This document shows positions 7,636 to 40,348 of a stretch of 40,348 nucleotides of DNA, piece by piece. Each line of letters begins with the position of its first letter. Positions within the stretch are counted from its first letter, which is position 1. Made by a program: the position numbers and the translations under genes. The stretch is from a virus. Under the pieces are notes generated by a model. That model made no database searches, was not told the origin of the DNA, and was given only the letters and a program-made list of their open reading frames with translations. The stretch is from IMG/VR virus record IMGVR_UViG_3300023181_000049, positions 1 to 40,348 of that record; one strand, 5' to 3'.

Positions 7636-10509
7636 ATGGCAGAGCAGACCGTAATTATTGATGTAACCTTAAATGCGCAGGATGCAACGCAAAAGGCAAA
7701 GGATTTAGGTAATAGTATTAAGGCTATTCGTGAAGAGCAAAAGGCTTTAAAGGCTCAAGGCAAGGAAAACGACGTAGCTTTTCAATCTAACAAGGCTAGT
7801 TTATCGCAATTAAACGCAGAGCAAAAGGCGTATATTCAGATAGCCAACGCCGCCGAAGGTTCTAACAATCAATTACGGGCGCAATTAGCTATACTAACCC
7901 AACAATATAATGCTTTAGGTAAAGCCGAAAGAGATAGTACGGTAGCTGGGCAATCTTTACAACTTCAAATTCGTGGCATATCTGATGAATTAAAGAAAAA
8001 TGAAAGTGCTGTAGGTGATAATAGGCGCAATGTTGGTAATTATAAGGATGCTTTAACCCAATCAAATGATGCTACAGGTCAAGCAATATCGGCTAACAAA
8101 CAATTATTATCTTCATTAGCGCCAAATACAATAGGTTTTCAGTTAGGCGCTAATGCGATTGATACCGCAAAGGCTCATTTGCAAGCTTTTAGACAGGCTA
8201 CCCAGGAAGCAAAAGAAGCGCAAACAGCATATCAACAAGCGCAAATCATATCAACACAAGCAACTGAAGCATCAAACATAGCTACAGAACAAGCAACGGC
8301 TATCGGTTTTAAGTTTACGCAAGGTGAAGCAACGCAAGCTGAAGTTATTGCGGCCAATACATTAGCCACCGATGCTAACATAGTAGCAACTGGAGCGCAA
8401 ACAGCGGCCACAGAGGCGCAAGTAGTAGCAACAAATACAGCTACAAGCGCAATGAAGATTTTTAAGGTTGCGTTAGCCTCCACAGGAATTGGAGCGATAC
8501 TTATTTTAGTAGCCACTTTAGTTAGTTACCTTTCTTCTTTCGATCCTTTGATTGATACTATCGAGCAATTGTTTTCGGGGTTTAAAGCAGGTATCGATGC
8601 GGTTGGTAGAATTATAACGGGGTTCATAACTAATATTAAATCGGTTGGTGATTTAGTTGGTAAGCTAGGTAACTTCTTTGCTCATCCGATTGACAGTATA
8701 AAATCATTCGGTAAGGCGGTTGCCGATGCAGCAGTTGCCGCAGCCAAATTAAAAGAGGCTCAACAAGATTTAGCCGACCAACAAAATGCACAGGAAGTTA
8801 TCAACGCAAGGGCAGAGCAACAGATTAAGCAATTAATCCTACAATCCAAAAATAGAACGATTAGCGATAAGCAAAGACAGGCTTTCTTGAAACAGGCCGA
8901 GGATTTGGAAAATAAAACATTTGCACAACGATCTAAGCTAATTGAAAAGGATAATAACAATGCCGTTGAAGCGGCTCGGATTAAAGGCAATCTTAATGCC
9001 CAAGAAATTAAAAAGTTAAAAGAGTTTGGAATTGAATATGCTATCCAATTACAAAACAGGGGTAAGCTTTCTGATGATGAAGTTGAGAATTTAAAGAAAG
9101 CACAGTTAGCTAGGATTGGAAATTTAGAAGAAAGTACTCAACGTTTAGAAAAAATTCAGAACAGGCAAGATGAAAGCGCAAAACGTGCCGCCGATGCTGA
9201 AGAAAAAAGACAGGCTAAGGCGCAAGCATTAAAAGAAAAAGGTATTGAAGCAGAACAAGCACGACTTGAAAGTGTTATAAAAACCAATGAAAGCATCCAA
9301 ACACAACGTAAAAACGAAGAGGATGCAGTAAATAGAGATATTGATGAAAAAGTTGCCAAGTATAAAAAGTATGGTAAAACAACAGAGCAATTAGAATTAG
9401 AGCGCACTTCGAGGTTAAAGGAAATCAATAAGCAATATAATGAAAGCATTGCCAAATCTACTCAAGATGTTTTAGATAAGGTTGCTGAAATTTATATAAA
9501 TCGTATTGCCGATAGAAATGATAGGGAATTAGCGCAAATAGCTTTTCAGAACGAAAAGAAATTAGCGTTAATCGACGCTGATATCCTTGCCACTCAAGAG
9601 CGAATAGCGTTAGGCGAGGAAGGATTGACCGAATTAATGGTGGCTCAACAATCATTAAGGGATGCTACTGTATCAGAAAACCAATCCGCTATTGACGCTA
9701 AGAATTTAGAAATACAGAATGAAAAAAACATAGCACTTGATGAGGACGCAAAAAGGCAAATCGAACGGGAACAATCAGTATTAGAAGCCAAGATTAAAAT
9801 CCAAGAGGAAGAGCGAAAGTTAACAGATGACGGATTAAAATTACTGGAGGACGTTTTTGGCAAAGAAACCGCAATCGGTAAGGCCGCATTCTTAGCGCAA
9901 AAGGCTTTTGCAATAGCCAGGGTTATAATCGATACTCAAGCCGCTTTAGCCGCCAACGTTGCGGCACAACAAGCGAGGGCTGTTTGGTTGTCAGTAATTC
10001 CATTTGGACAAATAGCGATAGCCGCCGATGCCGTTGCATCTCAAATCGCAAGAACCAAGATTATAATTGGAGCAGCTATTGCCGCAGGAACTATTGCCTC
10101 TACTGCTGTAGCTGGATTTTCAGACGGTGTTATTGGGTTTAATTCGGATGGTCAAGGCTCTATGGTTAGAGGGAAAGGCACTTCGAAATCTGATAGTATT
10201 AATGCAAGATTGAGCAACGGCGAAAGTGTAATCAATGCGAGAAGTACGGCTATGTATGCGCCTTTGTTATCAATGATAAATGAAATGGGCGGAGGTAGAC
10301 CTTTATCGGCCGGTTATGCTATGGCTCAAGGAGGGATTGCTCAAGGTGGCTTTGTATCTAAAATGAATGATGATTTTAATAATCAGATTGGATCGGCTAA
10401 CATAATTATAAACGCTATAAAAGCATTGCCTAATCCTGTTGTTTCGGTTGAGCAGATACTATCGGCTGAACAGGTTCGTCAGCAGGTAGCGGTTCAACAG
10501 AATTTATAA
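7636..10509 (+). CDS. tape measure protein
   Basis: 957 residues, the second longest protein here, which sets tail length and is threaded through the tube. The N-terminal 250 residues are Ala/Gln/Thr-rich helix and coiled coil. A hydrophobic segment (GIGAILILVATLVSYLSS, about 283-302) follows. A long Lys/Glu/Gln coiled coil covers about 370-750. A second hydrophobic Ala-rich region (IIIGAAIAAGTIAS) lies near 810-825, and near 845-870 comes KGTSKSDSINARLSNGESVI, a C-terminal motif typical of Bacteroidota tape measures. The start is ATG 7636 after an AT-rich leader. Its last 80 bp are overlapped by a leftward gene. Confidence 0.9.
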   Translation: MAEQTVIIDVTLNAQDATQKAKDLGNSIKAIREEQKALKAQGKENDVAFQSNKASLSQLNAEQKAYIQIANAAEGSNNQLRAQLAILTQQYNALGKAERDSTVAGQSLQLQIRGISDELKKNESAVGDNRRNVGNYKDALTQSNDATGQAISANKQLLSSLAPNTIGFQLGANAIDTAKAHLQAFRQATQEAKEAQTAYQQAQIISTQATEASNIATEQATAIGFKFTQGEATQAEVIAANTLATDANIVATGAQTAATEAQVVATNTATSAMKIFKVALASTGIGAILILVATLVSYLSSFDPLIDTIEQLFSGFKAGIDAVGRIITGFITNIKSVGDLVGKLGNFFAHPIDSIKSFGKAVADAAVAAAKLKEAQQDLADQQNAQEVINARAEQQIKQLILQSKNRTISDKQRQAFLKQAEDLENKTFAQRSKLIEKDNNNAVEAARIKGNLNAQEIKKLKEFGIEYAIQLQNRGKLSDDEVENLKKAQLARIGNLEESTQRLEKIQNRQDESAKRAADAEEKRQAKAQALKEKGIEAEQARLESVIKTNESIQTQRKNEEDAVNRDIDEKVAKYKKYGKTTEQLELERTSRLKEINKQYNESIAKSTQDVLDKVAEIYINRIADRNDRELAQIAFQNEKKLALIDADILATQERIALGEEGLTELMVAQQSLRDATVSENQSAIDAKNLEIQNEKNIALDEDAKRQIEREQSVLEAKIKIQEEERKLTDDGLKLLEDVFGKETAIGKAAFLAQKAFAIARVIIDTQAALAANVAAQQARAVWLSVIPFGQIAIAADAVASQIARTKIIIGAAIAAGTIASTAVAGFSDGVIGFNSDGQGSMVRGKGTSKSDSINARLSNGESVINARSTAMYAPLLSMINEMGGGRPLSAGYAMAQGGIAQGGFVSKMNDDFNNQIGSANIIINAIKALPNPVVSVEQILSAEQVRQQVAVQQNL

Positions 10510-10648
10510 TTTTTCGGTTGCGCTCAAATGCATTATTCATTTTCTCTAACTGATATTTATTAAACCCGAAAGGATTTGAAAACACATTTTTCTTTAATGC
10601 ATTAACTTCTTTAATCTTTTTACGCAGGTCTGATTTGTTTCGTATCAT
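10430..10648 (-). CDS. small leftward basic protein, unknown function
   Basis: 72 residues. The N-terminal half is basic (MIRNKSDLRKKIKEVNALKK) and may bind nucleic acid; the C-terminal tail is Pro/Gln-rich (VEPLPADEPVQPIV) and is encoded opposite the end of the tape measure gene. It is coupled by ATGA to the leftward HTH gene upstream of it, so the two form a two-gene operon. The function is not recognised. Confidence 0.5.
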   Translation of the reverse strand: MIRNKSDLRKKIKEVNALKKNVFSNPFGFNKYQLEKMNNAFERNRKIINSVEPLPADEPVQPIVSAQPKQQD

Positions 10649-10872
10649 TTGAATGATTTTAAAATATTAAATACGGTTGCCCTGCATACATTTAGCTTTG
10701 CGCTTGCTTCATTTACAGCCTCTGTTTTTTTGGATCCTGTTTTCATTCGCATATCTACAAATCTATAAATCTCTAAATGAGTTCCAATTTTAACAGGCAT
10801 CAATCCGTTACGCACTAAATACTTTAGTTCGCCACTAGCGTCAAGTCTATTTAAAATGTCGTATGTATTCAT
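10645..10872 (-). CDS. small helix-turn-helix protein, leftward
   Basis: 75 residues. After an N-terminal segment (MNTYDILNRLDASGELKYLV) the C-terminal half reads EIYRFVDMRMKTGSKKTEAV, then NEASAKLNVCRATVFNILK. The end is a classic HTH: A-x-K-L-N-V-C-R-A-T-V-F-N-I. It resembles small HTH proteins found across Bacteroidota mobile elements. It lies divergent to the protease/capsid genes, with a palindrome (10892-10905) between the two starts, so it may regulate itself and the capsid genes. Regulation is inferred. Confidence 0.65.
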   Translation of the reverse strand: MNTYDILNRLDASGELKYLVRNGLMPVKIGTHLEIYRFVDMRMKTGSKKTEAVNEASAKLNVCRATVFNILKSFK

Positions 10873-10891
10873 TTTTAATAAAGGTATAAAT

Positions 10892-10905
10892 AATAGTAGA
10901 CTATT
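10892..10905. promoter_or_regulatory. palindromic operator candidate
   Basis: AATAGT AG ACTATT is a perfect 6-bp inverted repeat with a 2-bp spacer, placed between the leftward HTH gene (start 10872) and the rightward protease gene (start 10935). It is a reasonable binding site for the neighbouring HTH protein; not demonstrable from sequence. Confidence 0.45.
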
Positions 10906-10934
10906 TTAAAACTATTTGAATTTACTTTTACATC

Positions 10935-12176
10935 ATGGCGGAAATAAAGCTTTACGATTACGAAGTTGCAGACGATTGGGGATGGTGTGAATTCTTTTGC
11001 ATTGGGCAAGGTAACCTATCTGCTTCAGTTGTTGTTCCTTTAATTGAAGCCGTTCCCGAAGATGAAGAAATTTTAGTTAAGATTAATTCGGTTGGCGGTT
11101 TTGTTTTTGACGGTTGGGCGATTTACAACGCGCTAAAAGCACATAAAGCTAAAGTTGTAGTTCGTATCGATGGATTAGCCGCAAGCATTGCCTCTATTAT
11201 AGCAATGGCAGGTGATGAAGTTAATATTTGTCAAGCGGCTATGTTAATGATACATAAGCCAACTGTTGATGGTTTTTGGATGGGTTCGGTAGATGCCGAA
11301 ACTTTAAAGAAAGAAGCCAACGCATTAGACCAAATCCAAGCGGTTTTAAATTCAATATATGTTTCAAAAACAGGAATGGATGCCGCCGCTATTGATGGTA
11401 TGATTAACGCCGAAACATGGATAACTCCAGATGTTGCAAAGGCTTTAGGTTTTGCTGATAGTATTTTAGGAACTATTTCTAACGAGGTTATCGAAACTAC
11501 ATTAAGCGAAAACATTTTTAAACACGTATTTAAAAATGCAAATGCGCAAACAATGGCTTATGCCAATAAAACGATTAAAGTAAATAAAGAAAATAAAAAT
11601 ATGGATAACGTAAAGGAGGCTTTAGAAAAGCACAACACTCTATTAACAGAGATTGGAAATTTCTTCAAAAACATTGTTAAGCCAAAAAATGAAGGCGAAG
11701 AAAACAATGAAGTTGTAAACTCATCGGTTCAACTTGAAAACGAAAGTTACATTTATTTCGATGGCGCGTTAGCCGTTGGGACTAAAGTATATACAGATGA
11801 GGCGATGACGGAAGCGGCAAGCGATGGTGACCATACATTAATGGACGGCAGAACTATTACGGTTGCAGATGCTGAAGTTACAAACATTCAGGAGGTAGTT
11901 GACGAAGCAGTTTCTAACGAAGCTTTAGTTGCTGAAAATACTTCCTTGAAAGAAAGAATTACGGCACTAGAAGAAAGCGTTAATTCACTAACAACTGCTG
12001 TTACTAATTCTAACGAGGCACTTGAAAAGATTAACAAAATCAAGTCTACCTACAAACCAGAAAATAGAGAGCAAGAGTTTTCTACTACTACTGTACCATC
12101 TACTAAGCCAGACTTTAGCAATGAAGCTAGAGAGGCAAGAAAACAAGAAATTAAAGACAAAAAAAATAAAAAATAA
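10935..12176 (+). CDS. ClpP-like prohead protease with scaffold-like C-terminus
   Basis: 413 residues. Residues 1-190 form a ClpP/SppA-type serine protease: NSVGGFVFDGWAIYNAL oxyanion region, catalytic Ser84 in DGLAASIASIIAMAGD, and His107 in MLMIHKPT. After about residue 205 the protein changes to a charged, low-complexity and coiled-coil region (ENTSLKERITALEESVNSL near 340-358) with a Lys-rich end, as in scaffolds that the protease digests during capsid maturation. An in-frame ATG at 11601 (MDNVKEALEKHN) could start a separate scaffold of 191 residues. It is immediately followed by the capsid gene (2-bp gap). Confidence 0.85.
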   Translation: MAEIKLYDYEVADDWGWCEFFCIGQGNLSASVVVPLIEAVPEDEEILVKINSVGGFVFDGWAIYNALKAHKAKVVVRIDGLAASIASIIAMAGDEVNICQAAMLMIHKPTVDGFWMGSVDAETLKKEANALDQIQAVLNSIYVSKTGMDAAAIDGMINAETWITPDVAKALGFADSILGTISNEVIETTLSENIFKHVFKNANAQTMAYANKTIKVNKENKNMDNVKEALEKHNTLLTEIGNFFKNIVKPKNEGEENNEVVNSSVQLENESYIYFDGALAVGTKVYTDEAMTEAASDGDHTLMDGRTITVADAEVTNIQEVVDEAVSNEALVAENTSLKERITALEESVNSLTTAVTNSNEALEKINKIKSTYKPENREQEFSTTTVPSTKPDFSNEAREARKQEIKDKKNKK

Positions 12177-26965: not shown

Positions 26966-27005
26966 ATTAAAAAACCTGTTACAAATCGTAACGGGTTTAT
27001 TTTTT
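26966..27005. terminator. bidirectional terminator between convergent operons
   Basis: An 11-bp stem, AAACCTGTTAC (26972-26982) with GTAACGGGTTT (26988-26998), has one G-T pair and an AAATC loop. A-rich sequence before and T-rich after (ATTTTTTTA) let it work in both directions, for the rightward lysis genes and the leftward early genes. Confidence 0.8.
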
Positions 27006-27312: not shown

Positions 27313-27996
27313 TTACAGCGTTTTAATATAATTCCTAATTAATTCAACACGCTCGTATACGGTTTCGATCGCTTCTGTATTTCTGTCTAAAAAGAACCGT
27401 TTAATTCTCAATTCGTCTTTAAAATTAGAATAAGTCATTTCTTCGGCAACCTCGTCGTATAATTCACTATCCAATTCGTCTAATCCCAAATCGTACATTT
27501 TAGATCGTGCTTCTCTCAATATTAAATGCTCTGGAGCATCCATTAACGTATACACCAATCCAGCTTGTGGCTTGTCGAATAATTCGCAATACCCTTGTAA
27601 TTGCCATCCGTAACCATCTACTGGTATTTCAGTTGCAAATAACGGAAATGTATCTTGATGCCAACTATTTTTAATATCTTCAATCGAATTAGCTAAAACC
27701 AAATCGGGTGTGCCGGTTATGTATTCGTTTTCTCGGTACTCATCATTTTTGGCAACCATACCCCATTTGTAATAGTTAGAAGCGAAATCGATACTTCCAT
27801 CCTCACAAAAATTACCTTTATCGGTATATTTTGATTTGAAGTTTTTATGGCGACCGTAAAATTCGGGTTGCTCTTTAATCCACTTATGGACATGGGCCAA
27901 ACACGTTTTGGATAAAATTTCGATTTTAGATTTCGGGTTGGTCATTATTTGACCAATACCCGAACATCTTGCTTTAAATTCTTTGCTCAACTGCAT
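27313..27996 (-). CDS. YqaJ-like phage exonuclease (PD-(D/E)XK)
   Basis: 227 residues. The N-terminus FKARCSGIGQIMTNPKSKIE and the later order of motifs match YqaJ-type viral recombinases: Glu65 in NFCEDGSID, Asp98 in YITGTPDLVL, Asp107-x-Lys109 in IEDIKNSW, and Gln132/Tyr136 in WQLQGYCELF. It would be a 5'-3' exonuclease that resects double-stranded ends for phage recombination or replication. It overlaps the preceding gene by 23 bp; that 169-residue gene is the usual neighbour of such exonucleases. Family assignment is confident, precise activity inferred. Confidence 0.8.
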   Translation of the reverse strand: MQLSKEFKARCSGIGQIMTNPKSKIEILSKTCLAHVHKWIKEQPEFYGRHKNFKSKYTDKGNFCEDGSIDFASNYYKWGMVAKNDEYRENEYITGTPDLVLANSIEDIKNSWHQDTFPLFATEIPVDGYGWQLQGYCELFDKPQAGLVYTLMDAPEHLILREARSKMYDLGLDELDSELYDEVAEEMTYSNFKDELRIKRFFLDRNTEAIETVYERVELIRNYIKTL

Positions 27997-28483
27997 CGCT
28001 AATTGCTTTTTTAGTGGTTTCTGAAATGATATAATGCTTTGATAAAACCTTTACAATGCCATCTAAAGTATTATTACCGCTTAATATGGTTTCAATTACT
28101 TCGTCCCATTGTGGGTTATCAGAGCCAAATTCTGGCAACGTAAATACAGGCGGTTCTTTTTTAACCCGTAAAGCGTCCATAATTTCGCCAAATGCTTTGA
28201 TTTTAACGACGTAAAGCGTTATCTGTTTGCCGAACCAATCCTCGACAAATTCGCTCCCTGTAGATGAGGAGATTGCCTTTGCATTTACGGTATTAACAAT
28301 CATTGGCTTTTGCCCTTTAATGTAAAGAACTAATCCTTGATTTTTTTCGGCATTCTTTAGCTCTTCTTTTTTAGCACCATCAATGGTAACAACCATTTCA
28401 CGGGTTGTACCGTCGCCATTCATAAGTTCGTACGCACCAATATAATTTGGGTCTTTCAATTTTTTGTAGTGTGTCTTTTCCAT
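27974..28483 (-). CDS. conserved phage protein paired with the exonuclease
   Basis: 169 residues. The core reads GLVLYIKGQKPMIVNTVNAK, then SSSTGSEFVEDWFGKQITLY and IMDALRVKKEPP. I recall this pattern (L-V-L-Y-F-x-G...L-V-N-x-T-N-A...G-S-x...W-x-G-K-x-I-x-L-Y...I-R-V) from many phage genomes, where the protein accompanies recombination genes and is sometimes called single-strand-DNA-binding. A beta-barrel first part and a helical end (about 120-169) are visible. Biochemical role not proved; binding of ssDNA is a reasonable guess. Confidence 0.6.
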   Translation of the reverse strand: MEKTHYKKLKDPNYIGAYELMNGDGTTREMVVTIDGAKKEELKNAEKNQGLVLYIKGQKPMIVNTVNAKAISSSTGSEFVEDWFGKQITLYVVKIKAFGEIMDALRVKKEPPVFTLPEFGSDNPQWDEVIETILSGNNTLDGIVKVLSKHYIISETTKKAISDAVEQRI

Positions 28484-28488
28484 TTTGA

Positions 28489-28671
28489 TTAATCTTTAAT
28501 AGTTACTAAAACTTCTTGCAACCCCTCGATAGAGGTTAACAATTGACTTGCTTGTTGTTCAAGCATTGTCTTTTCCCATTCGTTTGTAGACAATTCTGCT
28601 GTTTTAAGCATATTATTATAAATCGTTAACTGCTGATTTAACTGGAATAGCATTTTATCTCGGTTGCTCAT
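28489..28671 (-). CDS. small coiled-coil protein
   Basis: 60 residues from ATG 28671 (MSNRDKMLFQLNQQL). An earlier in-frame ATG at 28713 lies inside the preceding gene and gives a less plausible N-terminus. Almost wholly helical with Leu/Gln heptads (TMLEQQASQLLTSIEGLQEV). Not recognised; in the leftward early operon. Confidence 0.5.
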   Translation of the reverse strand: MSNRDKMLFQLNQQLTIYNNMLKTAELSTNEWEKTMLEQQASQLLTSIEGLQEVLVTIKD

Positions 28672-28696
28672 TATTTCTAGTTTTTGTTTAGTTGGT

Positions 28697-28927
28697 TTAA
28701 AATGCTTGTGCACCCTCGATTAGTGACTTAATTTCTTCATAAGTTTCTTTTACTAGATATGGTTGAGTATCTAACAATGGGTTTAAGTGTATAAATCCAT
28801 CACCAAAAGTTACAATTTTAGAAACATTCAGCATTTCTGGCTTGCCTAGAGATACCTTTCTTTCAATACCCATCATTATATCGCCTAAATCATAGTATCT
28901 AGGCGTTAATTCTATAAAACCTTTCAT
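28697..28927 (-). CDS. small beta-rich phage protein
   Basis: 76 residues. MKGFIELTPRYYDLGDIMMG then NVSKIVTFGDGFIHL; the pattern of a short beta-protein with F-I-E-L and I-V-x-F resembles widespread small phage proteins of unknown function. The C-terminus is a short acidic helix. Its start overlaps the stop of an upstream membrane peptide (ATGA). Confidence 0.55.
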   Translation of the reverse strand: MKGFIELTPRYYDLGDIMMGIERKVSLGKPEMLNVSKIVTFGDGFIHLNPLLDTQPYLVKETYEEIKSLIEGAQAF

Positions 28928-29004
28928 ATCGTCTGAAACATTAAATAACTAGCGACTAAACCTAACGCCCATATAGAGCAGATTAATAAGAATGCTTTTT
29001 TCAT
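28924..29004 (-). CDS. 26-residue membrane peptide in the leftward operon
   Basis: MKKAFLLICSIWALGLVASY then LMFQTI: Lys start and a hydrophobic helix. Start overlaps the upstream gene's stop (29001-29004) and its own stop overlaps the next ATG, giving ATGA at both junctions. That coupling makes a real gene likely despite its size. Confidence 0.5.
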   Translation of the reverse strand: MKKAFLLICSIWALGLVASYLMFQTI

Positions 29005-29147
29005 GATTTAATTTGTTTAGCTTTTTTGTCTAAAAATGTGTTAATTTCTTGATTGAACTTAAATTTATTTCCTTTAAGTTTATCCTTTGTTGCCGTCTTA
29101 ATCCTAGATGTAAGATAGGTCGTTTCTTCAAGTTTTTTTCTGCCCAT
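29001..29147 (-). CDS. ribbon-helix-helix-like candidate regulator, first gene of leftward operon
   Basis: 48 residues: MGRKKLEETTYLTSRIKTAT, then KDKLKGN and a C-terminal helix NQEINTFLDKKAKQ. A basic start, one extended strand (ETTYLTSRI) and two helices are the layout of small RHH (Arc/CopG) DNA-binding proteins. It is the first gene downstream of the leftward promoter and next to a large inverted repeat, so it may act at 29192-29289. The assignment is by pattern only. Confidence 0.5.
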   Translation of the reverse strand: MGRKKLEETTYLTSRIKTATKDKLKGNKFKFNQEINTFLDKKAKQIKS

Positions 29148-29165
29148 TGTTTAAATGTTATAAGG

Positions 29166-29196
29166 CAAATGTATAATTAATATTCTATATATGCAA
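29166..29196 (-). promoter_or_regulatory. leftward early promoter
   Basis: On the minus strand, TTG (29194-29196) and TACATTTG (29166-29173) are 20 bp apart. The leftward operon starts at 29147, 18 bp downstream. Confidence 0.65.
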
Positions 29197-29289
29197 CACA
29201 AATATTTAACGTCTATTATTTTGTTACATTAAACTAACTATTTGTAACATAGTAGATACAAATGAAAATAAATTTATATTTGTGTTGCA
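29192..29289. promoter_or_regulatory. symmetric 14-bp inverted repeat over both early promoters
   Basis: TGCAACACAAATAT (29192-29205) is the exact reverse complement of ATATTTGTGTTGCA (29276-29289). Each arm covers the -33 element of one divergent promoter and lies 18 or 17 bp from the corresponding -7 box, so one regulator could control both. A second 7-bp inverted repeat, TGTTACA/TGTAACA (29222-29249), lies between the arms. Confidence 0.65.
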
Positions 29290-29314
29290 AGTATAAAAAC
29301 TATTCGTACATTTG
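29285..29314 (+). promoter_or_regulatory. rightward early promoter
   Basis: TTG (29285-29287) and TACATTTG (29307-29314) are 19 bp apart; the first start is at 29337. A further TATATTTG (29275-29282) overlaps the right arm of the inverted repeat. Confidence 0.65.
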
Positions 29315-29336
29315 ACTATACAAAAACAACAACGAT

Positions 29337-29555
29337 ATGAAAACTATATTAACAGCACTAAAAAACATACCTAATGTAAATTACGCTAGGTTATCTAAAG
29401 ACAAAAAACAAGTTTTGGTATCAATTAAGCCATTAACAGTTTCTACTTTTAATCACTACTTTAATAAATTGAGAGGAAATATTTTTTCATCTATTAGTTT
29501 TGATACCGCTAAAGACACTAAGGTGTCTACAATAATTAGCTTTTACATTAACTAG
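29337..29555 (+). CDS. first rightward early protein, unknown function
   Basis: 72 residues: MKTILTALKNIPNVNYARLS, then KDKKQVLVSIKPLTVSTFNH. Basic, with no recognised family. Its place as the first product of the rightward early promoter suits a regulator, an anti-host factor or an antirestriction protein, but nothing in the sequence shows which. The protein is alpha/beta with basic residues throughout. Confidence 0.55.
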   Translation: MKTILTALKNIPNVNYARLSKDKKQVLVSIKPLTVSTFNHYFNKLRGNIFSSISFDTAKDTKVSTIISFYIN

Positions 29556-29605
29556 CCCCCATCTAACTCAGATTAAACGATAACAAAAACCCTAACAATA
29601 AGATT

Positions 29606-29746
29606 ATGAAAACTCAATCATTTAACAAAACTCTTTTAAAAGTAGGTAAATTATTAATCGGTTCACAAAGCCGTCATTCTTACAATGGTAAAATTGAATA
29701 CTTTATAGATTTTGGTAGTTTCAATTTATTTACCTTAAAGTTTTAA
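29606..29746 (+). CDS. 46-residue early protein, unknown function
   Basis: MKTQSFNKTLLKVGKLLIGS then SYNGKIEYFIDFGSFNLFTL. Basic amphipathic start, then aromatic strands. It is in the rightward early operon with a 50-bp leader after the previous gene. No family recognised. Confidence 0.4.
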   Translation: MKTQSFNKTLLKVGKLLIGSQSRHSYNGKIEYFIDFGSFNLFTLKF

Positions 29747-29767
29747 CTAACCACTAAATAAAGAAAG

Positions 29768-29872
29768 ATGAAAAAGCAACTATCAATCACCGAACTAGAT
29801 TTACTACAGGCCAAACTAGCATTGCGTAAAATATATCTAAAAGCTAAATTTAAAAATCAAGGGAAATTGTAA
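29768..29872 (+). CDS. 34-residue basic early peptide
   Basis: MKKQLSITELDLLQAKLALR then a basic end. Its stop overlaps the next start by one base (TAATG, 29870-29874), supporting translation. Helical, possibly RNA/DNA-binding. Unknown. Confidence 0.4.
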   Translation: MKKQLSITELDLLQAKLALRKIYLKAKFKNQGKL

Positions 29873-30282
29873 TGGAAAACACAGAAAGAAATAAAAAACT
29901 ATTTTTTGCTCAATATTATGGCCAAATAGTATTGGCGGACTTAAATCATGGATTTGTAGCCGATAACGAAGCTTGTAATTGGCATTTAAATTTTTCGGAC
30001 AATTACTTAATGCTCGCCCCGTTGTCGTCGATTACAGAGGAAGACGCTGTTGAATTTTGTAGGCTAAACTATGGTTATTCTGAAAATCACATTCTTAAAA
30101 ACGATGGCTCAATTTCAATTAGGAGTGGCAGATTTCAGTATACTAGGGTTAATGATGATTTTTATAATTTTAACTCTAAATCTTCTGACTACCTAAGGTC
30201 TAAAGGATATGCTTTACCGTTTATGGATTTATCAGTTGAAAAATTAATCAAATATGGATGGCTTAAACTTAAAACATCATGA
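29872..30282 (+). CDS. conserved phage protein of unknown function
   Basis: 136 residues. Conserved-looking features are KKLFFAQYYGQIVL at the start, YLMLAPLSSITEEDAVEFCR in the middle, and YLRSKGYALPFMDLSVEKLI near the end. I recall this pattern, especially R-S-K-G-Y-A-L-P-F, from many Bacteroidota phages and mobile elements without an assigned role. Its overlap with the following membrane peptide is ATGA. Confidence 0.6.
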   Translation: MENTERNKKLFFAQYYGQIVLADLNHGFVADNEACNWHLNFSDNYLMLAPLSSITEEDAVEFCRLNYGYSENHILKNDGSISIRSGRFQYTRVNDDFYNFNSKSSDYLRSKGYALPFMDLSVEKLIKYGWLKLKTS

Positions 30283-30371
30283 AAAAACTAACCCGCCCCC
30301 AGCTTTCCCTATTCATTATACCTCTTTGGTTCTTTGGTAGATTGGTGTTTACTTTAATAACCGGATCATGA
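30279..30371 (+). CDS. 30-residue membrane peptide
   Basis: It begins MKKLTRPQLSLFIIPLWFFG and ends RLVFTLITGS. Basic start, one aromatic hydrophobic helix. Coupled at both ends by ATGA overlaps, which supports a real gene. Unknown function. Confidence 0.45.
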   Translation: MKKLTRPQLSLFIIPLWFFGRLVFTLITGS

Positions 30372-30507: not shown

Positions 30508-31092
30508 ATGAAGTCTGATTACGCCATAAAAACGATAAGCAAAATAGATGCTTCGTATATAATTTTAAAATATCATTATTTGAAAGACATATCGAAAGGA
30601 TTTAAAAGCGGGTATAACTTCGGGTTATTTAAAAAAGATGAATTAGTCGGAGTTTGCGTATTTACAGGATTTCCAGTACCAGAATTGTCAAAGGGTATGC
30701 TTGGGCTTGAACGAAACGATCAAGATGGTTTATTTGAATTAAGTCGGCTTTGCTTGTCCCCAGAAATTCAATCAACAGAACATAATTTAAGCAGCTACTT
30801 TGTTTCAAAATGCATTAAGAAACTAAGAAAGATGACGAATGTTAGGGTAATACTTTCTTATGCAGATAATGACTTTCACAAAGGAACTGTTTATAAAGCC
30901 TGTAATTTTAAATACTATGGATTGACTGATGCTAAAAAAGATTTTTGGATTGAAAATTCAGATGGTTCTTTTATAAAACACAGCAGAGGTAAAACGAAGG
31001 GCGTTAGAGGGGAATGGAGAAAAAGAAGTCAAAAGCATAGATTTGCCTTAATATTCGACAAATCTTTAACCTGTCAATGGCCTTTATTCTAA
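30508..31092 (+). CDS. Mom-like DNA base-modification enzyme (GNAT fold)
   Basis: 194 residues. The layout matches the phage Mu Mom family, which adds a carbamoylmethyl group to adenine N6 and so protects phage DNA from restriction. Visible pattern: LKYHYLKDISKGFKSGYNFG (early), KDELVGVCVFTGFPVP, ELSRLCLSPEIQ (75-87), and VRVILSYADNDFHKGTVYK (112-130), followed by ACNFKYYGLT and a C-terminal KHRFALIF. These are the acetyl-CoA-type core of GNAT proteins in the Mom variant. Family call by pattern; chemistry not proved. The adjacent helicase-methyltransferase fusion adds a second modification function. Confidence 0.65.
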   Translation: MKSDYAIKTISKIDASYIILKYHYLKDISKGFKSGYNFGLFKKDELVGVCVFTGFPVPELSKGMLGLERNDQDGLFELSRLCLSPEIQSTEHNLSSYFVSKCIKKLRKMTNVRVILSYADNDFHKGTVYKACNFKYYGLTDAKKDFWIENSDGSFIKHSRGKTKGVRGEWRKRSQKHRFALIFDKSLTCQWPLF

Positions 31093-31339: not shown

Positions 31340-31717
31340 ATGAGCCCATTTATATACGCCGGATTAACGGAAGAAAAACAAATCAGTTTTTTGTTAGGAA
31401 CACATTTCATTGAACCAAATGATATTATTACTGGAATTGCTGAATTGATGGGGATTAATTACTCGGATATTCACGGAAATTCAAGGAAAGATGAATTTGT
31501 AATGGCTCGCCAAATATGTATTGGATTGATTGCGTTAAACTTTCCTCATCTTACTTTAAAAGAAATTGGCGGAATGTTTAATAACAGGCACCACGCCACT
31601 ATACTTTATTCAATCGATGAATATAAGCACTCCTACACACATGAAAGGAAGTTTAGAAACATGGTTTTATTATTTAAAAACCAATCTAATCATCACTATA
31701 TTACTAATCCTAATTAA
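31340..31717 (+). CDS. orphan DnaA domain IV protein
   Basis: 125 residues, matching only the C-terminal DNA-binding domain of the initiator DnaA. The signature is SRKDEFVMARQICIGLIALN (48-67), then LTLKEIGGMFNNRHHATILY (71-90), the DnaA HTH plus the G-G-R-D-H-T-T-V-like box (here NNRHHATIL). The ATPase domain is absent. The protein probably binds DnaA-box-like sites on phage or host DNA, either helping phage replication start or blocking host DnaA. The N-terminal 45 residues are unassigned. Confidence 0.75.
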   Translation: MSPFIYAGLTEEKQISFLLGTHFIEPNDIITGIAELMGINYSDIHGNSRKDEFVMARQICIGLIALNFPHLTLKEIGGMFNNRHHATILYSIDEYKHSYTHERKFRNMVLLFKNQSNHHYITNPN

Positions 31718-31731
31718 ACAATTATAAACCC

Positions 31732-31773
31732 AGTCGGGCGGGTAAAGCTATGTCTGTAAGCGACCGCCTGACT
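31732..31773 (+). promoter_or_regulatory. long-loop stem in the leader of the helicase-methyltransferase gene
   Basis: AGTCGGGCGG (31732-31741) pairs with CCGCCTGACT (31764-31773); one G-T pair, a 22-nt loop and no T-run afterwards. GC-rich compared with its surroundings. It ends 20 bp before ATG 31794, so a translational or RNA-stability role is possible. Confidence 0.45.
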
Positions 31774-31793
31774 TAAAATAAATTAAACTTACT

Positions 31794-33977
31794 ATGAAAG
31801 AATATAATGACTTTTTGGAAACGAAAAGAAAGACTTTTATTGAATCAGGTTTCGAGATTGATGAAAGCAAATTAAATAAACACTTATTCGATTTCCAGCG
31901 TTATGCAGTTAAAATTGCGCTTGCTAAAGGTCGCTTTGCATTGTTTGAAGATTGCGGACTAGGTAAGACTTTACAGCTTTTAGTTTGGGCTGAGGAAGTA
32001 TCTAAGTACACCAAAAAGAAAGTATTAATTTTATCACCATTGGCAATTGTAGATCAAACTAAAAATGAAGCGGTTAAATTTGGTATTAAGAATAAATATT
32101 TTGATGTTATAAATTATGATCAGCTACACAATATAGATGTTTCAAAATACTCTGGAGTTGTTTTAGATGAAAGTTCAATATTAAAAGGTCGTGACGGTAA
32201 AACTTCGTCATTAATATTAGAAACATTTAAAGGATTTTCATATAAGTTAGCATGCACCGCTACACCATCTCCTAACGATCACATGGAATTAGGACAGCAT
32301 AGCGAATTTTTAGGCGGGATGAGCTATTTAGAAATGTTAGCTATGTTCTTTGTTCATGACGGTGGAGAAACTTCTAAATGGCGTTTAAGAAAGCACGCTA
32401 AAGACGTATTTTGGAAATACGTTTGCACATGGTCAATAGCTATTGACAACCCTAAAACATTAGGATTTAAAGGTGATGGATATGACTTGCCAGAAATTGA
32501 ATATATCGAACATATTATTTCAGTTGATAACGAAAGTTACTCTCTATTTAACGATGTGGCAATTTCTGCAACTGATATTCATAAGGACTTAAATAGGTCA
32601 TTTGATGCTCGTATTGAAAAGTGTATTGAATTAGTTAATCATTCAGATGGGCAGTCTATTATTTGGGGCCTTAAAAACAATGAAACAGATACGATTGTAA
32701 AGTTAGTCAATAACGCTGTTAATGTTCAAGGATCTGACACGCCTCAATACAAGGCAAAGCATTTAAACGGATTTGCAAATAAAGAGTTTGAAAACCTAGT
32801 TACTAAAACTTCTATTGCTTCTTTTGGTATGAATTATCAGCAATGTAATAATATGGTTTTCCTAAGCTATGATTTTAAGTTTGAGGCATTTTATCAAGCC
32901 GTAAGGCGTTGTTATCGTTTCGGACAAAAAAACAAAGTTACTGTACATATTTTAATCCCAGAAACACAACAAAACGTAAGGGCAACAATTTTACAAAAAC
33001 AACAAAACCATTTTGAAATGATACACGAAATGGCAAAATATTCTGCTGAAGCTGATTACAAATCAAATAAATCTAAATTAATGATTAAAAATAAAGAAAT
33101 TAAAACAGAAAATTACCATTTGATAAATGGAGATTGCGTTCAAGAAACCCAAAAACTAGCTGATAACTGCGCTGATATTGTAGTATTCAGTCCGCCATTT
33201 GCCGAATTATATGTGTATTCTGACAAAGAAGAAGATATGGGTAACGTATCGGATTACAAACAATTCGAACAGCATTTTAAATACCTTATTCCTCAAATTA
33301 AAAGAACGTTAAAGCCTGGTAGAATTTGCGCTATTCATTGCATGGATTTACCAATTCAAAAAGGTAAAGAGGGTTATATAGGTTTAAGGGATTTTAGCGG
33401 AATGATTACAAATTGGTTTCAAGATCAAGGCTTTATTTATCATTCTAGGGTTACGATTTGGAAAAACCCAGTTACGGAAATGCAACGTACTAAAGCGTTG
33501 GGTTTATTGCATAAAACTATAAAAAAAGATAGCGTTATGACTAGGGTAGGTATTCCAGATTATATCCTATTTTTCAGAAATGATGGAGAAAATGAAACTC
33601 CTATTAAACATCAAGATACTGATCCTGCTAAATTAGATTATCTACCTGTAGACCTTTGGCAGAAATACGCATCCCCTGTTTGGTATGATATTGATTATTC
33701 CCGTACATTGCAGTATAGAAGCGGTAGGGATGGAAATGATGAGAAGCACATTGCACCACTCCAACTAGATACAATCGAGAGAATACTGCATTTATATTCT
33801 AATGAGGGCGAAACTGTTTTAAGCACATTTGGAGGTATTGGTAGTGAGGGTTGTTGTGCTTTAAAGATGAATAGAAAATCTATATCAATCGAATTAAAAG
33901 AAAGTTATTTTAAAATAAATGAAGCTAATCATAGGGCGTTTTCTGAAGAAAAAAACAGCGTACTAACTTTATTCTAA
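31794..33977 (+). CDS. SF2 helicase fused to an N-type DNA methyltransferase
   Basis: 727 residues. The N-terminal part is a SNF2-like helicase: FEDCGLGKT (51-59, Walker A), VLDESS (123-128, motif II), CTATPSPND (154-162, motif III) and near 370 QAVRRCYRFGQKNK (motif VI). The C-terminal part (about 437-727) is a beta-type amino-methyltransferase with motif IV VFSPPFAEL (SPPF at 466-469) and a later motif-I-like STFGGIGSEG (677-686). SPPF suggests cytosine-N4 or adenine-N6 methylation; the motif order IV then I is normal for beta class. It may protect phage DNA against restriction, with the helicase aiding tracking along DNA. Confidence 0.8.
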   Translation: MKEYNDFLETKRKTFIESGFEIDESKLNKHLFDFQRYAVKIALAKGRFALFEDCGLGKTLQLLVWAEEVSKYTKKKVLILSPLAIVDQTKNEAVKFGIKNKYFDVINYDQLHNIDVSKYSGVVLDESSILKGRDGKTSSLILETFKGFSYKLACTATPSPNDHMELGQHSEFLGGMSYLEMLAMFFVHDGGETSKWRLRKHAKDVFWKYVCTWSIAIDNPKTLGFKGDGYDLPEIEYIEHIISVDNESYSLFNDVAISATDIHKDLNRSFDARIEKCIELVNHSDGQSIIWGLKNNETDTIVKLVNNAVNVQGSDTPQYKAKHLNGFANKEFENLVTKTSIASFGMNYQQCNNMVFLSYDFKFEAFYQAVRRCYRFGQKNKVTVHILIPETQQNVRATILQKQQNHFEMIHEMAKYSAEADYKSNKSKLMIKNKEIKTENYHLINGDCVQETQKLADNCADIVVFSPPFAELYVYSDKEEDMGNVSDYKQFEQHFKYLIPQIKRTLKPGRICAIHCMDLPIQKGKEGYIGLRDFSGMITNWFQDQGFIYHSRVTIWKNPVTEMQRTKALGLLHKTIKKDSVMTRVGIPDYILFFRNDGENETPIKHQDTDPAKLDYLPVDLWQKYASPVWYDIDYSRTLQYRSGRDGNDEKHIAPLQLDTIERILHLYSNEGETVLSTFGGIGSEGCCALKMNRKSISIELKESYFKINEANHRAFSEEKNSVLTLF

Positions 33978-34146: not shown

Positions 34147-34350
34147 ATGCAAAACGAGACCAACCTATCACGCGTTAAGTCCGCATTTGAAAGTGGATTG
34201 AGACTGACTGTAGTAAGCGCAATTGAATTGTGCCATACTTCCGAATTAAGAGTTTATGTAACTCAACTAATCCGATCAGGACTAAACATTAAATCCGATT
34301 GGTGCTATTCAAAAGAAAAGAAGTGGAAAGTTTATTATTTAGAAAAATAG
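34147..34350 (+). CDS. small winged-HTH-like protein (HTH_39 type)
   Basis: 67 residues. SAFESGLRLTVVSAIELCHT, then SELRVYVTQLIRSGLNIKSD and WKVYYLEK: the layout of a small winged helix (recognition helix around ELRVYVTQLIRSGLNI, wing at the end) as seen in phage HTH proteins. Probably a DNA-binding regulator or replication-associated protein. Confidence 0.6.
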   Translation: MQNETNLSRVKSAFESGLRLTVVSAIELCHTSELRVYVTQLIRSGLNIKSDWCYSKEKKWKVYYLEK

Positions 34351-34382
34351 TTTGCGGATTTAAGAAAAATTAAATATATTTG
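34351..34382 (+). promoter_or_regulatory. promoter of the Xre-type regulator
   Basis: TTTG (34351-34354) and TATATTTG (34375-34382) are 20 bp apart, a near-perfect match. The ATG at 34386 is only 3 bp downstream, so the transcript would be nearly leaderless. Confidence 0.65.
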
Positions 34383-34385
34383 AAT

Positions 34386-34553
34386 ATGAATTTGAGAGAA
34401 AAGATTAAGGCAAGCGGTTTAAAGCAAAAGTTCATTGCTGAAAAATTAGGCTTATCAGAAGCTCACTTAACCATGATGTTAAATGGCAAAGCAACAATGC
34501 CAGAATTTATAAGGAACGACTTAAACACGTTACTTAAATTAGTTGGAGTATAG
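34386..34553 (+). CDS. small Xre/Cro-type regulator
   Basis: 55 residues: MNLREKIKASGLKQKFIAEK, then LGLSEAHLTMMLNGKATMPE. The second segment is a textbook HTH_3 (A-x-K-L-G-L-S...H-L-T-x-M-L-N-G). This size is that of Cro-like proteins without a dimerisation extension. The operator is unknown. Start chosen at ATG; a TTG two codons later is possible. Confidence 0.75.
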   Translation: MNLREKIKASGLKQKFIAEKLGLSEAHLTMMLNGKATMPEFIRNDLNTLLKLVGV

Positions 34554-36345: not shown

Positions 36346-36705
36346 ATGAAAACATTAAAAGAATACGAGTATAAAAGTTTATACGAAAAATTACTATTAG
36401 AAATAGAAACCTATCATACTTTTTATAATGATTTTAGTAAGCATATTATGTTAATTTCAATAGGCAGAGGATTATTAATTGATATGTATTCTGATTTGAT
36501 TAAATTTAAGAAAGCAAACCCAACAAATCCGAAAATACCAGAAAAGGAAGCAAAATTAAAGCAGTTGTTAGATGTGTTTGATGAATTTGATGGTTTACAT
36601 TCTAAGTGTATTCAAATGCAATTACAGCTACGCAGGTCTAACGAATTAGTATTTAAATTAACCGAGGAATTAACCGCCATTAAAAAGGCTCATAACGAAA
36701 AGTAA
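36346..36705 (+). CDS. helical protein, unknown function
   Basis: 119 residues, almost all helix: SLYEKLLLEIETYHTFYNDF, KQLLDVFDEFDGLHSKCIQM. Coiled-coil propensity at the end. It begins 2 bp after the helicase gene, so it may be a replication accessory; not recognised. Confidence 0.5.
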   Translation: MKTLKEYEYKSLYEKLLLEIETYHTFYNDFSKHIMLISIGRGLLIDMYSDLIKFKKANPTNPKIPEKEAKLKQLLDVFDEFDGLHSKCIQMQLQLRRSNELVFKLTEELTAIKKAHNEK

Positions 36706-36977: not shown

Positions 36978-37045
36978 TTAAAATTTATACTTGGAAAACC
37001 TACCGAATGATTAAACGCCTTAAATGGTTAATCGGTAAAAATTGA
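36974..37045 (+). CDS. 23-residue basic peptide
   Basis: MIKIYTWKTYRMIKRLKWLI then GKN. Rich in Lys/Arg/Trp. Coupled by ATGA to the preceding gene. Very short; low certainty. Confidence 0.3.
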   Translation: MIKIYTWKTYRMIKRLKWLIGKN

Positions 37046-37050
37046 AAAAT

Positions 37051-37311
37051 ATGGAAAGAGATTTCAATAAGCATTTTAATTTAAGCGAAAACGACCATTC
37101 TAAATTATGGAATTTATTCCTTGAACACGGCATGACTAGAGGAGAGGCTTTTCACCGAACAAAAGGCAACCATTATTATTTACAAGCTATCTGTCAATAT
37201 CATTCGGTTGAATGGAAAACATGGAAAAGTAAGCTATCTCCTTTTGTTAAAAATTTAATAGAAACTGAATACCCACAATTAATGGTTCAAGACAAATCAT
37301 TTGAAAAGTAA
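37051..37311 (+). CDS. helical basic protein, unknown function
   Basis: 86 residues from ATG 37051; an in-frame TTG at 37042 overlaps the previous stop and remains possible. NHYYLQAICQYHSVEWKTWK is aromatic-rich. Not recognised. Followed by the DUF1064 gene after 3 bp. Confidence 0.5.
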   Translation: MERDFNKHFNLSENDHSKLWNLFLEHGMTRGEAFHRTKGNHYYLQAICQYHSVEWKTWKSKLSPFVKNLIETEYPQLMVQDKSFEK

Positions 37312-37314
37312 ATT

Positions 37315-37680
37315 ATGAAAAACGAACTAACCATCCAGGAATACAAAGAACTTCAATTCCAGGTTACGCCACAAATGAAGTATCGTAACCAAAAGACTAC
37401 AGTAGATGGAATTGTGTTTGATAGCAAATTAGAAGCTGAATATTACGGTAAACTTAAATTGTGGGTTAAGTCTGGGGTTGTATTATCATTCGAAAGACAG
37501 GTTGTTTATCCTTTTATTCACAATGGCGTTAAAATCGGATCGTATAAATCAGACTTTGATGTAATTTGGAAAGATAGCGGTTTAAAGGTTACGGATGCAA
37601 AAGGTTTTCGTACTGATTTGTATAAGTGGAAAAAGAAAATGATGCTTGCTTTTTATGGTATAGTGATAAAAGAAGTATAG
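37315..37680 (+). CDS. DUF1064 PD-(D/E)XK nuclease
   Basis: 121 residues. MKYRNQKTTVDGIVFDSKLE (21-40) is the typical start of DUF1064, followed by AEYYGKLKLWVKSG, SYKSDFDVIW with Asp80, and KVTDAKGFRTDLYKWKKKMM with Asp94 and Lys96. This is a PD-(D/E)XK endonuclease fold; DUF1064 members are thought to act as junction resolvases or structure-specific nucleases in phages. Location in the replication module fits. Catalytic residues are present. Confidence 0.8.
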   Translation: MKNELTIQEYKELQFQVTPQMKYRNQKTTVDGIVFDSKLEAEYYGKLKLWVKSGVVLSFERQVVYPFIHNGVKIGSYKSDFDVIWKDSGLKVTDAKGFRTDLYKWKKKMMLAFYGIVIKEV

Positions 37681-37741
37681 CAATCATGTTACATTTTCGC
37701 ATCGTTTTAACTCGTAAATTGCACTAACAAAACCAATTGAT

Positions 37742-38002
37742 ATGTCAGCGTTCGAAGCATTAGTAAAAGTAGCTAAAATAGATAATGAATACGGTAAAAA
37801 AATGTTCTTAGAGCAATATGTTACGCCTATGTTGGAAAATGCTTACGGAAAAGACCAACCTATTCACTTGCTGTCTAAACTTATTATTCAGTCATATTTG
37901 ATTAAAGCAATTTGCAAGCTGTTAGGATTGAATAAAATCACTGAAATAAATAAAGCTCAAACAGAGCAGATAAATACAATTTTTAACGGATTAATTAAAT
38001 AG
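37742..38002 (+). CDS. small helical protein, unknown function
   Basis: 86 residues. MSAFEALVKVAKIDNEYGKK then LLSKLIIQSYLIKAICKLLG. A hydrophobic central helix and polar ends, but not clearly transmembrane. Not recognised. Confidence 0.45.
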   Translation: MSAFEALVKVAKIDNEYGKKMFLEQYVTPMLENAYGKDQPIHLLSKLIIQSYLIKAICKLLGLNKITEINKAQTEQINTIFNGLIK

Positions 38003-38393: not shown

Positions 38394-38630
38394 ATGGAGA
38401 CAGCACAGGAGACAGCAATTAGAGTATTAGAACTAGACCCTAATTGGGTTCAAGATAAGATATGGTTAGATAGTCACAAAATAGTAGAAGCGATGAAAGC
38501 CTATGCCATGCAGGAATGCGAAAAGGTTAGGCGAGAATGTGCGGATAATGCTAAGGAATGGGTAACCGTTCCATTGTATAAGAAGAAATGTACGGATGCA
38601 ATCCTCTCAACCCCTATAACCCTTAGCTGA
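38394..38630 (+). CDS. small helical protein, unknown function
   Basis: 78 residues: METAQETAIRVLELDPNWVQ then HKIVEAMKAYAMQECEKVRR and a C-terminal LYKKKCTDAILSTPI. Cys-containing helices. Similar short early proteins are common in phages; no assignment. Confidence 0.45.
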   Translation: METAQETAIRVLELDPNWVQDKIWLDSHKIVEAMKAYAMQECEKVRRECADNAKEWVTVPLYKKKCTDAILSTPITLS

Positions 38631-38631
38631 T

Positions 38632-38760
38632 ATGGAAAAGAAACTTACCCTCTGTCAATACGTAGGACATTCTTATTGGAGGATTGGAATGACAAATAAA
38701 TTTGAATGTAAATGGTGCTATCATATATCCACTTTTAAATTACCCATAACCCGTCCATAA
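38632..38760 (+). CDS. 42-residue possible zinc-binding peptide
   Basis: MEKKLTLCQYVGHSYWRIGM then NKFECKWCYHISTFKLP. A Cys-x-x-Cys in CKWC and nearby Cys/His residues could bind zinc, but the arrangement is incomplete. Basic, early operon. Confidence 0.4.
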   Translation: MEKKLTLCQYVGHSYWRIGMTNKFECKWCYHISTFKLPITRP

Positions 38761-39816: not shown

Positions 39817-40128
39817 ATGCAACTAACCCAACAAGAAATTCAAGAACAGGCAGAGAAGCTCCTGCAGGCATCACCCGATTTAGTTGATGAGAGAAGTTTT
39901 ATTCAGGGTTTCAATTCTTGCGCCCAATGGATGCAGGAAAGAGAGAAGTGGATTAGTGTGAAAACTCAAACCCCGCCAATTTGCGGTGATGGATGCTTAA
40001 CCAGTCATAAAAATGGAGGCGTTAATATAACTTACTTTTCAAGAGGGTATGAAGAAAAAGATGCTGATTATTTTTTAAGTGTTGGACATACCCACTGGAT
40101 GCATTTACCCTCACCTCCTAAAGATTAG
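39817..40128 (+). CDS. DUF551-like protein
   Basis: 103 residues. A helical start (MQLTQQEIQEQAEKLLQASP) precedes the C-terminal DUF551 pattern W-I-S-V-x...P-P, here KWISVKTQTPPICGDG, ending in THWMHLPSPP. DUF551 is a small domain common in phage early regions, of unknown function. A GGAGG (39805-39809) lies upstream of the start. Confidence 0.65.
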   Translation: MQLTQQEIQEQAEKLLQASPDLVDERSFIQGFNSCAQWMQEREKWISVKTQTPPICGDGCLTSHKNGGVNITYFSRGYEEKDADYFLSVGHTHWMHLPSPPKD

Positions 40129-40130
40129 AT

Positions 40131-40348
40131 ATGGAAAATACAACTCACGAATTAAAAACAATAGAGCCGTATTATTTAAAGGTTTATCTCGGTTTAAAGA
40201 ACTTTGAATTAAGGAAATTCGACAGAGATTACAAAGTCGGAGACACTCTTATTTTAAAGCAGTATAATGCGGAAAACAAAACCTATACAGGTCAATTTAT
40301 GACTAGAAAAATAACCTATATTCTTTCTGACGCCACTCAATTCGGCTT
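40131..40348 (+). CDS. DUF3850-like protein, cut by the window edge
   Basis: At least 72 residues: MENTTHELKTIEPYYLKVYL, then KNFELRKFDRDYKVGDTLIL and a final SDATQFG. H-E-L-K...Y-x-x-x-x-x-x-x-K-x-F-E-x-R-x-x-D-R-D-(F/Y)-K-V-G-D is the DUF3850 (ASCH-like) pattern. The expected ending after F-G-L is missing because the window stops. A putative RNA-binding fold; function unknown. Confidence 0.7.
   Translation, partial: MENTTHELKTIEPYYLKVYLGLKNFELRKFDRDYKVGDTLILKQYNAENKTYTGQFMTRKITYILSDATQFG

Follow-up and report, generated by a model that had tools for sequence, protein, structure and literature searches.

The question raised by this locus is whether one regulator could act on two early operons at once from the short junction between them. 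The window, that is, the stretch of DNA analysed here, is the whole of IMG/VR virus record IMGVR_UViG_3300023181_000049 (40,348 bases). In this Bacteroidota phage, the divergent early control region spans positions 29148-29336, and the layout of the open reading frames places early functions on both sides of it, with the divergent transcription units meeting at 29,148-29,336 (Table 1). An initial annotation had described two promoters there, each covered at -33 by an arm of an inverted repeat, and had proposed that one regulator could close or open both operons, perhaps by looping.

Gene layout and the two divergent promoters

The leftward early operon serves small genes and recombination functions, and the rightward early operon also carries genes for a Mom-family DNA modification protein (30508-31092, Pfam Mom E=3e-30), a stand-alone DnaA domain IV protein (31340-31717, Bac_DnaA_C E=5.8e-16) with weakly similar proteins at several other phage loci, a SNF2 helicase-methyltransferase fusion (31794-33977), a Cro-like HTH protein, a replication initiation protein and a helicase. 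Of 187 viral matches to the SNF2-methyltransferase fusion, 80 loci were kept, with 75-84% identity; the fusion is also present in Bacteroidota genomes and is a widely exchanged mobile phage gene whose neighbours are not conserved. These 80 loci, which are without synteny, were rejected as kin of the region. Between the DnaA-domain and SNF2-methyltransferase genes lies a GC-rich intergenic hairpin (31712-31782; -20.4 kcal/mol, z -3.3; no Rfam match), which is 93% conserved in the related record L206 (IMG/VR 3300020045_002637; 41,439 bp, helicase 94% identical) and there stands before a different gene. An open reading frame for a hydrophobic 30-residue peptide, MKKLTRPQLSLFIIPLWFFGRLVFTLITGS, was also observed at 30279-30371, its DNA 94% identical in L206, and a terminator-like hairpin, AAACCTGTTACAAATCGTAACGGGTTT, at 26972-26998, where the late operon and the leftward early operon converge.

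Table 1. Features of the window around the divergent early control region (+, rightward strand; -, leftward strand)
Feature	Position	Strand	Description
Structural and lysis genes	terminase at 83 to about 26,936	rightward	
Leftward early operon	29,147 down to 27,004	-	48-aa gene, two small genes, phrog_21613, exonuclease
Exonuclease gene	27313-27996	-	phrog_5715, E=2e-46
phrog_21613 protein gene	27974-28483	-	in leftward early operon
Small leftward genes	28697 and 28489	-	within the 27313..28927 part of the operon
First leftward gene	29001..29147	-	48 aa, putative ribbon-helix-helix candidate
Leftward early promoter	29166..29196	-	-33 TTG 29196..29194, 20 nt, -7 TACATTTG 29173..29166
Left operator candidate	29187..29205	-	19-bp imperfect palindrome, ATATTTGTGTTGCATATAT on promoter strand; holds arm 29192-29205
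Inner inverted repeat	29222-29249		TGTTACA-N14-TGTAACA; overlaps 16-mer TATTTTGTTACATTAA at 29217-29232
Right operator candidate	29276..29294	+	19-bp imperfect palindrome, ATATTTGTGTTGCAAGTAT; holds arm 29276-29289
Rightward early promoter	29285..29314	+	-33 TTG 29285-29287, 19 nt, -7 TACATTTG 29307-29314
First rightward early gene	29337..29555	+	72 aa, matches no family
Rightward early operon	from 29,337	+	small genes, DNA modification, replication functions
Small winged-HTH-like protein	34147..34350	+	HTH_39 E=0.03; in L206 and L207, 39-40% identity
Cro-like HTH protein	34380..34553	+	57 aa (55 from ATG 34386); HTH_3 E=9.5e-6, above cut-off

Both divergent promoters of the initial annotation were borne out. 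Each carries the Bacteroidota sigma-A elements, with a -7 box TACATTTG on either strand (the leftward one reads CAAATGTA on the given strand) and a TTG 19-20 nt upstream, and the distance from the -7 box to the start codon is 18 nt leftward and 22 nt rightward. In a survey of 390 intergenic TAnnTTTG (-7) sites in 83 related phage loci, a TTG stood 19 nt upstream at 48 sites and 20 nt upstream at 21, with about 3-16 at other spacings. In Flavobacterium psychrophilum, the sigma-A -7 box has been mapped as TAnnTTTG (PMC9723704). The two promoters are credible because the TTG spacing is enriched in related loci and the -7 elements fit the F. psychrophilum box. Related phage promoters have a generic -33 context made up mostly of A/T, and -33 elements here and in the relatives usually start with TTGC.

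The 14-bp repeat and the 19-bp operator candidates

The inverted repeat that had been reported over the two -33 boxes was confirmed without a mismatch at the place described: TGCAACACAAATAT / ATATTTGTGTTGCA, with 70 nt between the arms, one arm over each -33 box, the TTG inside each arm, and 18 nt (leftward) and 17 nt (rightward) from the arm to the -7 box. Of 1000 dinucleotide-shuffled versions of the region, 4 (about 0.4%) had a repeat of at least 14 bp, 14 bp is the longest repeat among all 189-bp windows of the record, and a TTG-anchored identical run of at least 14 was present in 10 of 5054 random Bacteroidota-phage promoter pairs (about 0.2%), a statistic that excludes loci chosen by the TTGTGTTGCA pattern, which biased it. 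The 14-bp repeat is non-random, moderately beyond chance. The suggested search for the 14-mer elsewhere in the full record gave no exact copy beyond the pair (7 matches at up to 3 mismatches, two of them exact, versus 9.5 expected), and the twin 14-mer pattern had no match in the viral contigs scanned.

Both arms belong to a shared 19-bp imperfect palindrome, ATATTTGTGTTGCAWRTAT, and each 19-bp copy forms an imperfect dyad, ATATTTG-N5-CAWRTAT, with half-sites 6/7 about a common centre. For a dyad common to both copies, shuffling core and flanks gave P=0.003 and shuffling the flanks alone P=0.034; the form of the dyad suits a putative dimeric regulator. The arm sequence upstream of the TTG, ATATTTGTG, contains G residues and is unlike the generic -33 context. 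The two spacers between arm and -7 box had a similarity score of 9.0, where shuffles averaged 7.2 and 51 of 500 reached the observed value; the spacers are not clearly alike, and a recent duplication of the whole promoter was rejected on this weak similarity. Operator copies are therefore favoured over such a duplication, in view of the 19-bp dyads, the unusual ATATTTGTG and the unlike spacers.

Other known kinds of site were also sought. A host regulon site was discarded, with 4 matches in 395 Bacteroidota genomes versus 2 for the reversed control. Bacteroidetes LexA operators read GGA-N5-TCC, CTAA-N5-TTAG or TTAC-N5-GTAA (PMC8565304), and none of these reported SOS motifs is present in the control region.

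The second inverted repeat described between the arms was likewise found (Table 1). This inner 7-bp repeat alone is not significant, and the 16-mer that it overlaps also occurs in L206, within its early control region; sharing of at least 16 bp was reached in 4 of 2000 shuffles. Part of the early control region may thus have been inherited in common by the window and L206. Of the candidate control sites, the inner repeat is perhaps the better conserved.

Relatives, a parallel case and the candidate regulators

Close kin are few. A corresponding divergent early region is carried by L206, by L207 (helicase 51% identical) and by L003, a 2,125-bp contig joined at about 850, of which the part 850-2125 corresponds to window 28,560-29,840. 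Near 850 in L003, two stretches of opposite orientation are joined inside the exonuclease gene, which is a misassembly or a rearrangement. Two further loci, L004 and L005, share the exonuclease, and no homologous control region was found in them; scans of viral contigs with a conserved linker and with a conserved small peptide gave no further loci. Several window stretches (24-58, 29576-29609, 36670-36696, 36992-37051, 37705-37744, 38610-38638 and 40107-40142) are 90-100% identical to L206 or L003; a number of them lie at gene junctions, many of the neighbouring genes are unrelated, and the stretches look like shared linkers at gene exchange points.

None of the homologous regions in L206, L003 and L207 contains the 14-mer. 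The first leftward gene of L206 and L003 encodes proteins of about 85 aa, 49% identical to each other, that of L206 being XRE/HTH_3-like; in L207 the first leftward product is an uncharacterised 49-aa protein and the second is a clear Arc/HicB-type ribbon-helix-helix protein. L003 is without the first rightward gene of the window, and its own first rightward gene uses the leader of the second gene of the window. Since the 14-mer is absent and the leftward gene swapped in these relatives, the first leftward gene and the -33 sequences change together on a constant layout. The initial annotation had held that absence of the repeat from relatives, together with failure of the proteins to bind, would tell against its model; the absence is real, but it does not refute the model, because the first leftward gene has been swapped too.

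A parallel case occurs in a second divergent control region of L206, at 10665-10862, where the palindrome TGCAAATATATTTGCA lies on both divergent -33 boxes, with centres 70 bp apart and TTG-20 and TTG-19 spacing, and a third promoter at 11313 has a degenerate copy, GTGCTAAATAATTTGCAC, on its -33 box. As in the window, twin candidate operators cover both divergent -33 boxes; the L206 region differs from the window in its sequence, its perfect 16-20-bp palindrome, its third degenerate copy, its neighbours and its spacing (70 versus 89 bp). It lies inside a block of about 1.9 kb (10039-11904) that is missing from the window and whose flanks match window 37,315-37,680 and 37,705-37,744. The block carries leftward genes for an HTH-like 75-aa and a 130-aa protein and three promoters with GTGCAAATATATTTGCAC or its degenerate copy at -33. 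We met this region while tracing TGTAACA copies and not by a search for twin -33 sites. Among 164 divergent promoter-like pairs, the L206 pair shares 17 bp, the window pair 14 bp and all others at most 9 bp, and roughly 0.03% of random control pairs shared at least 14 bp, an upper estimate given that the controls include TTGTGTTGCA-selected loci. Six additional phage genomes, of which several have Flavobacteriia hosts, contained no twin -33 pair. The L206 case is the strongest support for reading 29148-29336 as a twin-operator region.

Small proteins of the phage are candidates for the regulator. The 48-aa first leftward product had been put forward as a ribbon-helix-helix candidate, and the family searches did not sustain that call: the protein had no match in Pfam or PHROGs at E<=1, hence no ribbon-helix-helix family, and reached E=0.077, far below cut-off, with the NCBIfam VapB antitoxin model. 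No significant homologue was present in phage or plasmid records, and AlphaFold returned a single helix where the ribbon-helix-helix fold has a beta strand and then two helices, although a monomer predicted from 1 or 2 sequences is an unfair test for an intertwined dimer. Its position is fitting, and it is absent from the relatives, as is the 14-mer. The Cro-like protein, whose gene has its own promoter at 34352, is a genuine HTH protein and a second candidate regulator; it has a homologue in L207, which is without the 14-mer. The HTH_39 protein is a putative regulator common to the relatives. None of these candidates is tied to the site by homology.

The proposed switch and its alternatives

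We consider that 29148-29336 is a real, and probably a functional, twin-operator early control region. As to how it works, we lean somewhat towards twin 19-bp candidate operators on the -33 boxes, at which a dimeric phage regulator shuts both early operons. A dimeric phage-encoded protein would bind each 19-bp copy independently, the bound dimer would block RNA polymerase holoenzyme from the -33 box, and both early operons would be shut at equal protein level. The gene for the regulator would probably sit in an operon under its control, so that the protein would repress its own synthesis (negative autoregulation); there would be two candidates, the first leftward product of 48 aa and the Cro-like protein of 57 aa. 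The sequences themselves show the gene layout, the promoter elements, the repeat with its placement and the parallel case in L206; protein binding, repression and the choice of protein are what we infer from them. The small candidate DNA-binding proteins encoded beside the homologous regions (first leftward in L206, second leftward in L207) favour twin operators. Against them, there are two copies only, the 14-mer is in no relative found and so lacks a phylogenetic footprint, the half-sites of the dyad do not match fully (P=0.034, flanks only), and 14-bp matches arise in 0.2% of unrelated promoter pairs. One regulator acting on both operons is the best reading because of the shared -33 cover and the same architecture in L206; this much of the original proposal stands, with the divergent promoters, and the sequence of that cover is not generic; the binding protein that it named is a candidate. 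The looping suggested with it gained nothing: the operator centres, 89 bp apart in the window (8.5 turns at 10.5 bp per turn, 8.1 at 11.0) and 70 bp apart in L206, have no common helical phase, and such spacings give neither support nor disproof.

The main competitor, in our judgement unlikely, is that the 14-mer is promoter sequence alone, a converged or inherited -33 box with its upstream element and no dedicated regulator at the arms. The usual TTGC start, the 0.2% of random pairs that share at least 14 TTG-anchored bases, some with recurrent -33 context, and the lack of conservation of the 14-mer in relatives all agree with it, but the G-containing upstream half of the arm is foreign to the usual -33 context, the spacers are not clearly alike, and twin -33 palindromes recur in L206. 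We regard as improbable that the operator proper is the inner repeat TGTTACA-N14-TGTAACA, served by a regulator common to the relatives such as the HTH_39 protein, with the arms incidental. The 16-mer common to the early control region of L206 (at least 16 bp in 4 of 2000 shuffles), the two inverted TGTAACA copies in both regions, and the HTH_39 proteins common to the window, L206 and L207 speak for this; but the copies stand in opposite order in the window and L206, the window repeat stands at some 50-60 bp from the -7 boxes, far upstream of either promoter, TGTAACA pairs are missing from L003 and L207, and 7-bp repeats are expected by chance here.

The -33 position is also that of class II activators, so that a phage protein at or beside -33 might recruit RNA polymerase to both early promoters, which would open together; both promoters already combine a consensus -33 box with a consensus -7 box, spaced optimally, which leaves activation unneeded, and the TTG itself would be covered. 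This makes activator sites quite improbable. Least probable by far is a replication origin in which the ACACA core of the arms, next to an AT-rich stretch, is the binding site of the DnaA-domain-IV protein. The protein has a strong Bac_DnaA_C match, each arm contains TGCAACACA, matching the CACA half of the DnaA box, and the region is AT-rich; but T-N4-CACA occurs 44 times in the record, there are no iterons, and the sites lie exactly on promoter boxes. A DnaA box cluster was likewise rejected, the full box TTATNCACA occurring a single time in the whole record, at 37514.

The twin-operator region, taken as the preferred reading, can be set beside known switches. P22 Arc and Mnt, CopG and omega are small ribbon-helix-helix repressors beside divergent or self-controlled promoters, with sites overlapping the promoter; in the window, no Arc-, CopG- or heptad-type sites were recognised, and the 48-aa protein is a putative member of that fold. 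Lambda OR, TP901-1 CI/MOR and the switch of S. aureus phage 13 (PMC8516035) resemble the window in their divergent early promoters with repeated operators overlapping promoter elements; small DNA-binding regulators are encoded at the junction in these switches, and XRE-like or ribbon-helix-helix genes sit there in the relatives of the window. The window departs from these temperate phage switches in having just two candidate operators, set as mirror images over the -33 boxes of its early operons, in its Bacteroidota sigma-A promoters (-33/-7), and in showing neither a repressor from a known family nor, among the proteins examined, an integrase. The RcoLS20 switch of pLS20 (PMC4207663) is similar in its divergent promoters, its one regulator (here a proposal) and its repeated operators; looping between two multi-site operators was reported there (PMC4207663), whereas the spacing in the window gives looping no support. 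The twin-operator region belongs to the long-known class of phage divergent switches, here on a Bacteroidota promoter, and the point added is that the relative L206 has this geometry too, with a candidate operator of another sequence. In the literature searched, we found no worked operator-promoter switch of a Bacteroidota phage.

It is possible, though we hold this only tentatively, that mosaic freshwater Bacteroidota phages swap whole control cassettes, each small regulator coming with its own mirror-twin -33 operators; the regulators that we would propose, equally tentatively, are the 48-aa protein, the XRE-like protein of about 85 aa, and the HTH-like plus 130-aa proteins. If this is true, one phage group would hold many orthogonal switches of a single geometry, analogous to lambdoid immunity regions. 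The control circuits of Bacteroidota phages are little known. If confirmed, the twin -33 operators would provide two orthogonal regulator-operator pairs on the Bacteroidota -33/-7 promoter, would aid the reading of early regions of Bacteroidota phages, and may offer gene-control parts for Flavobacterium and Bacteroides.
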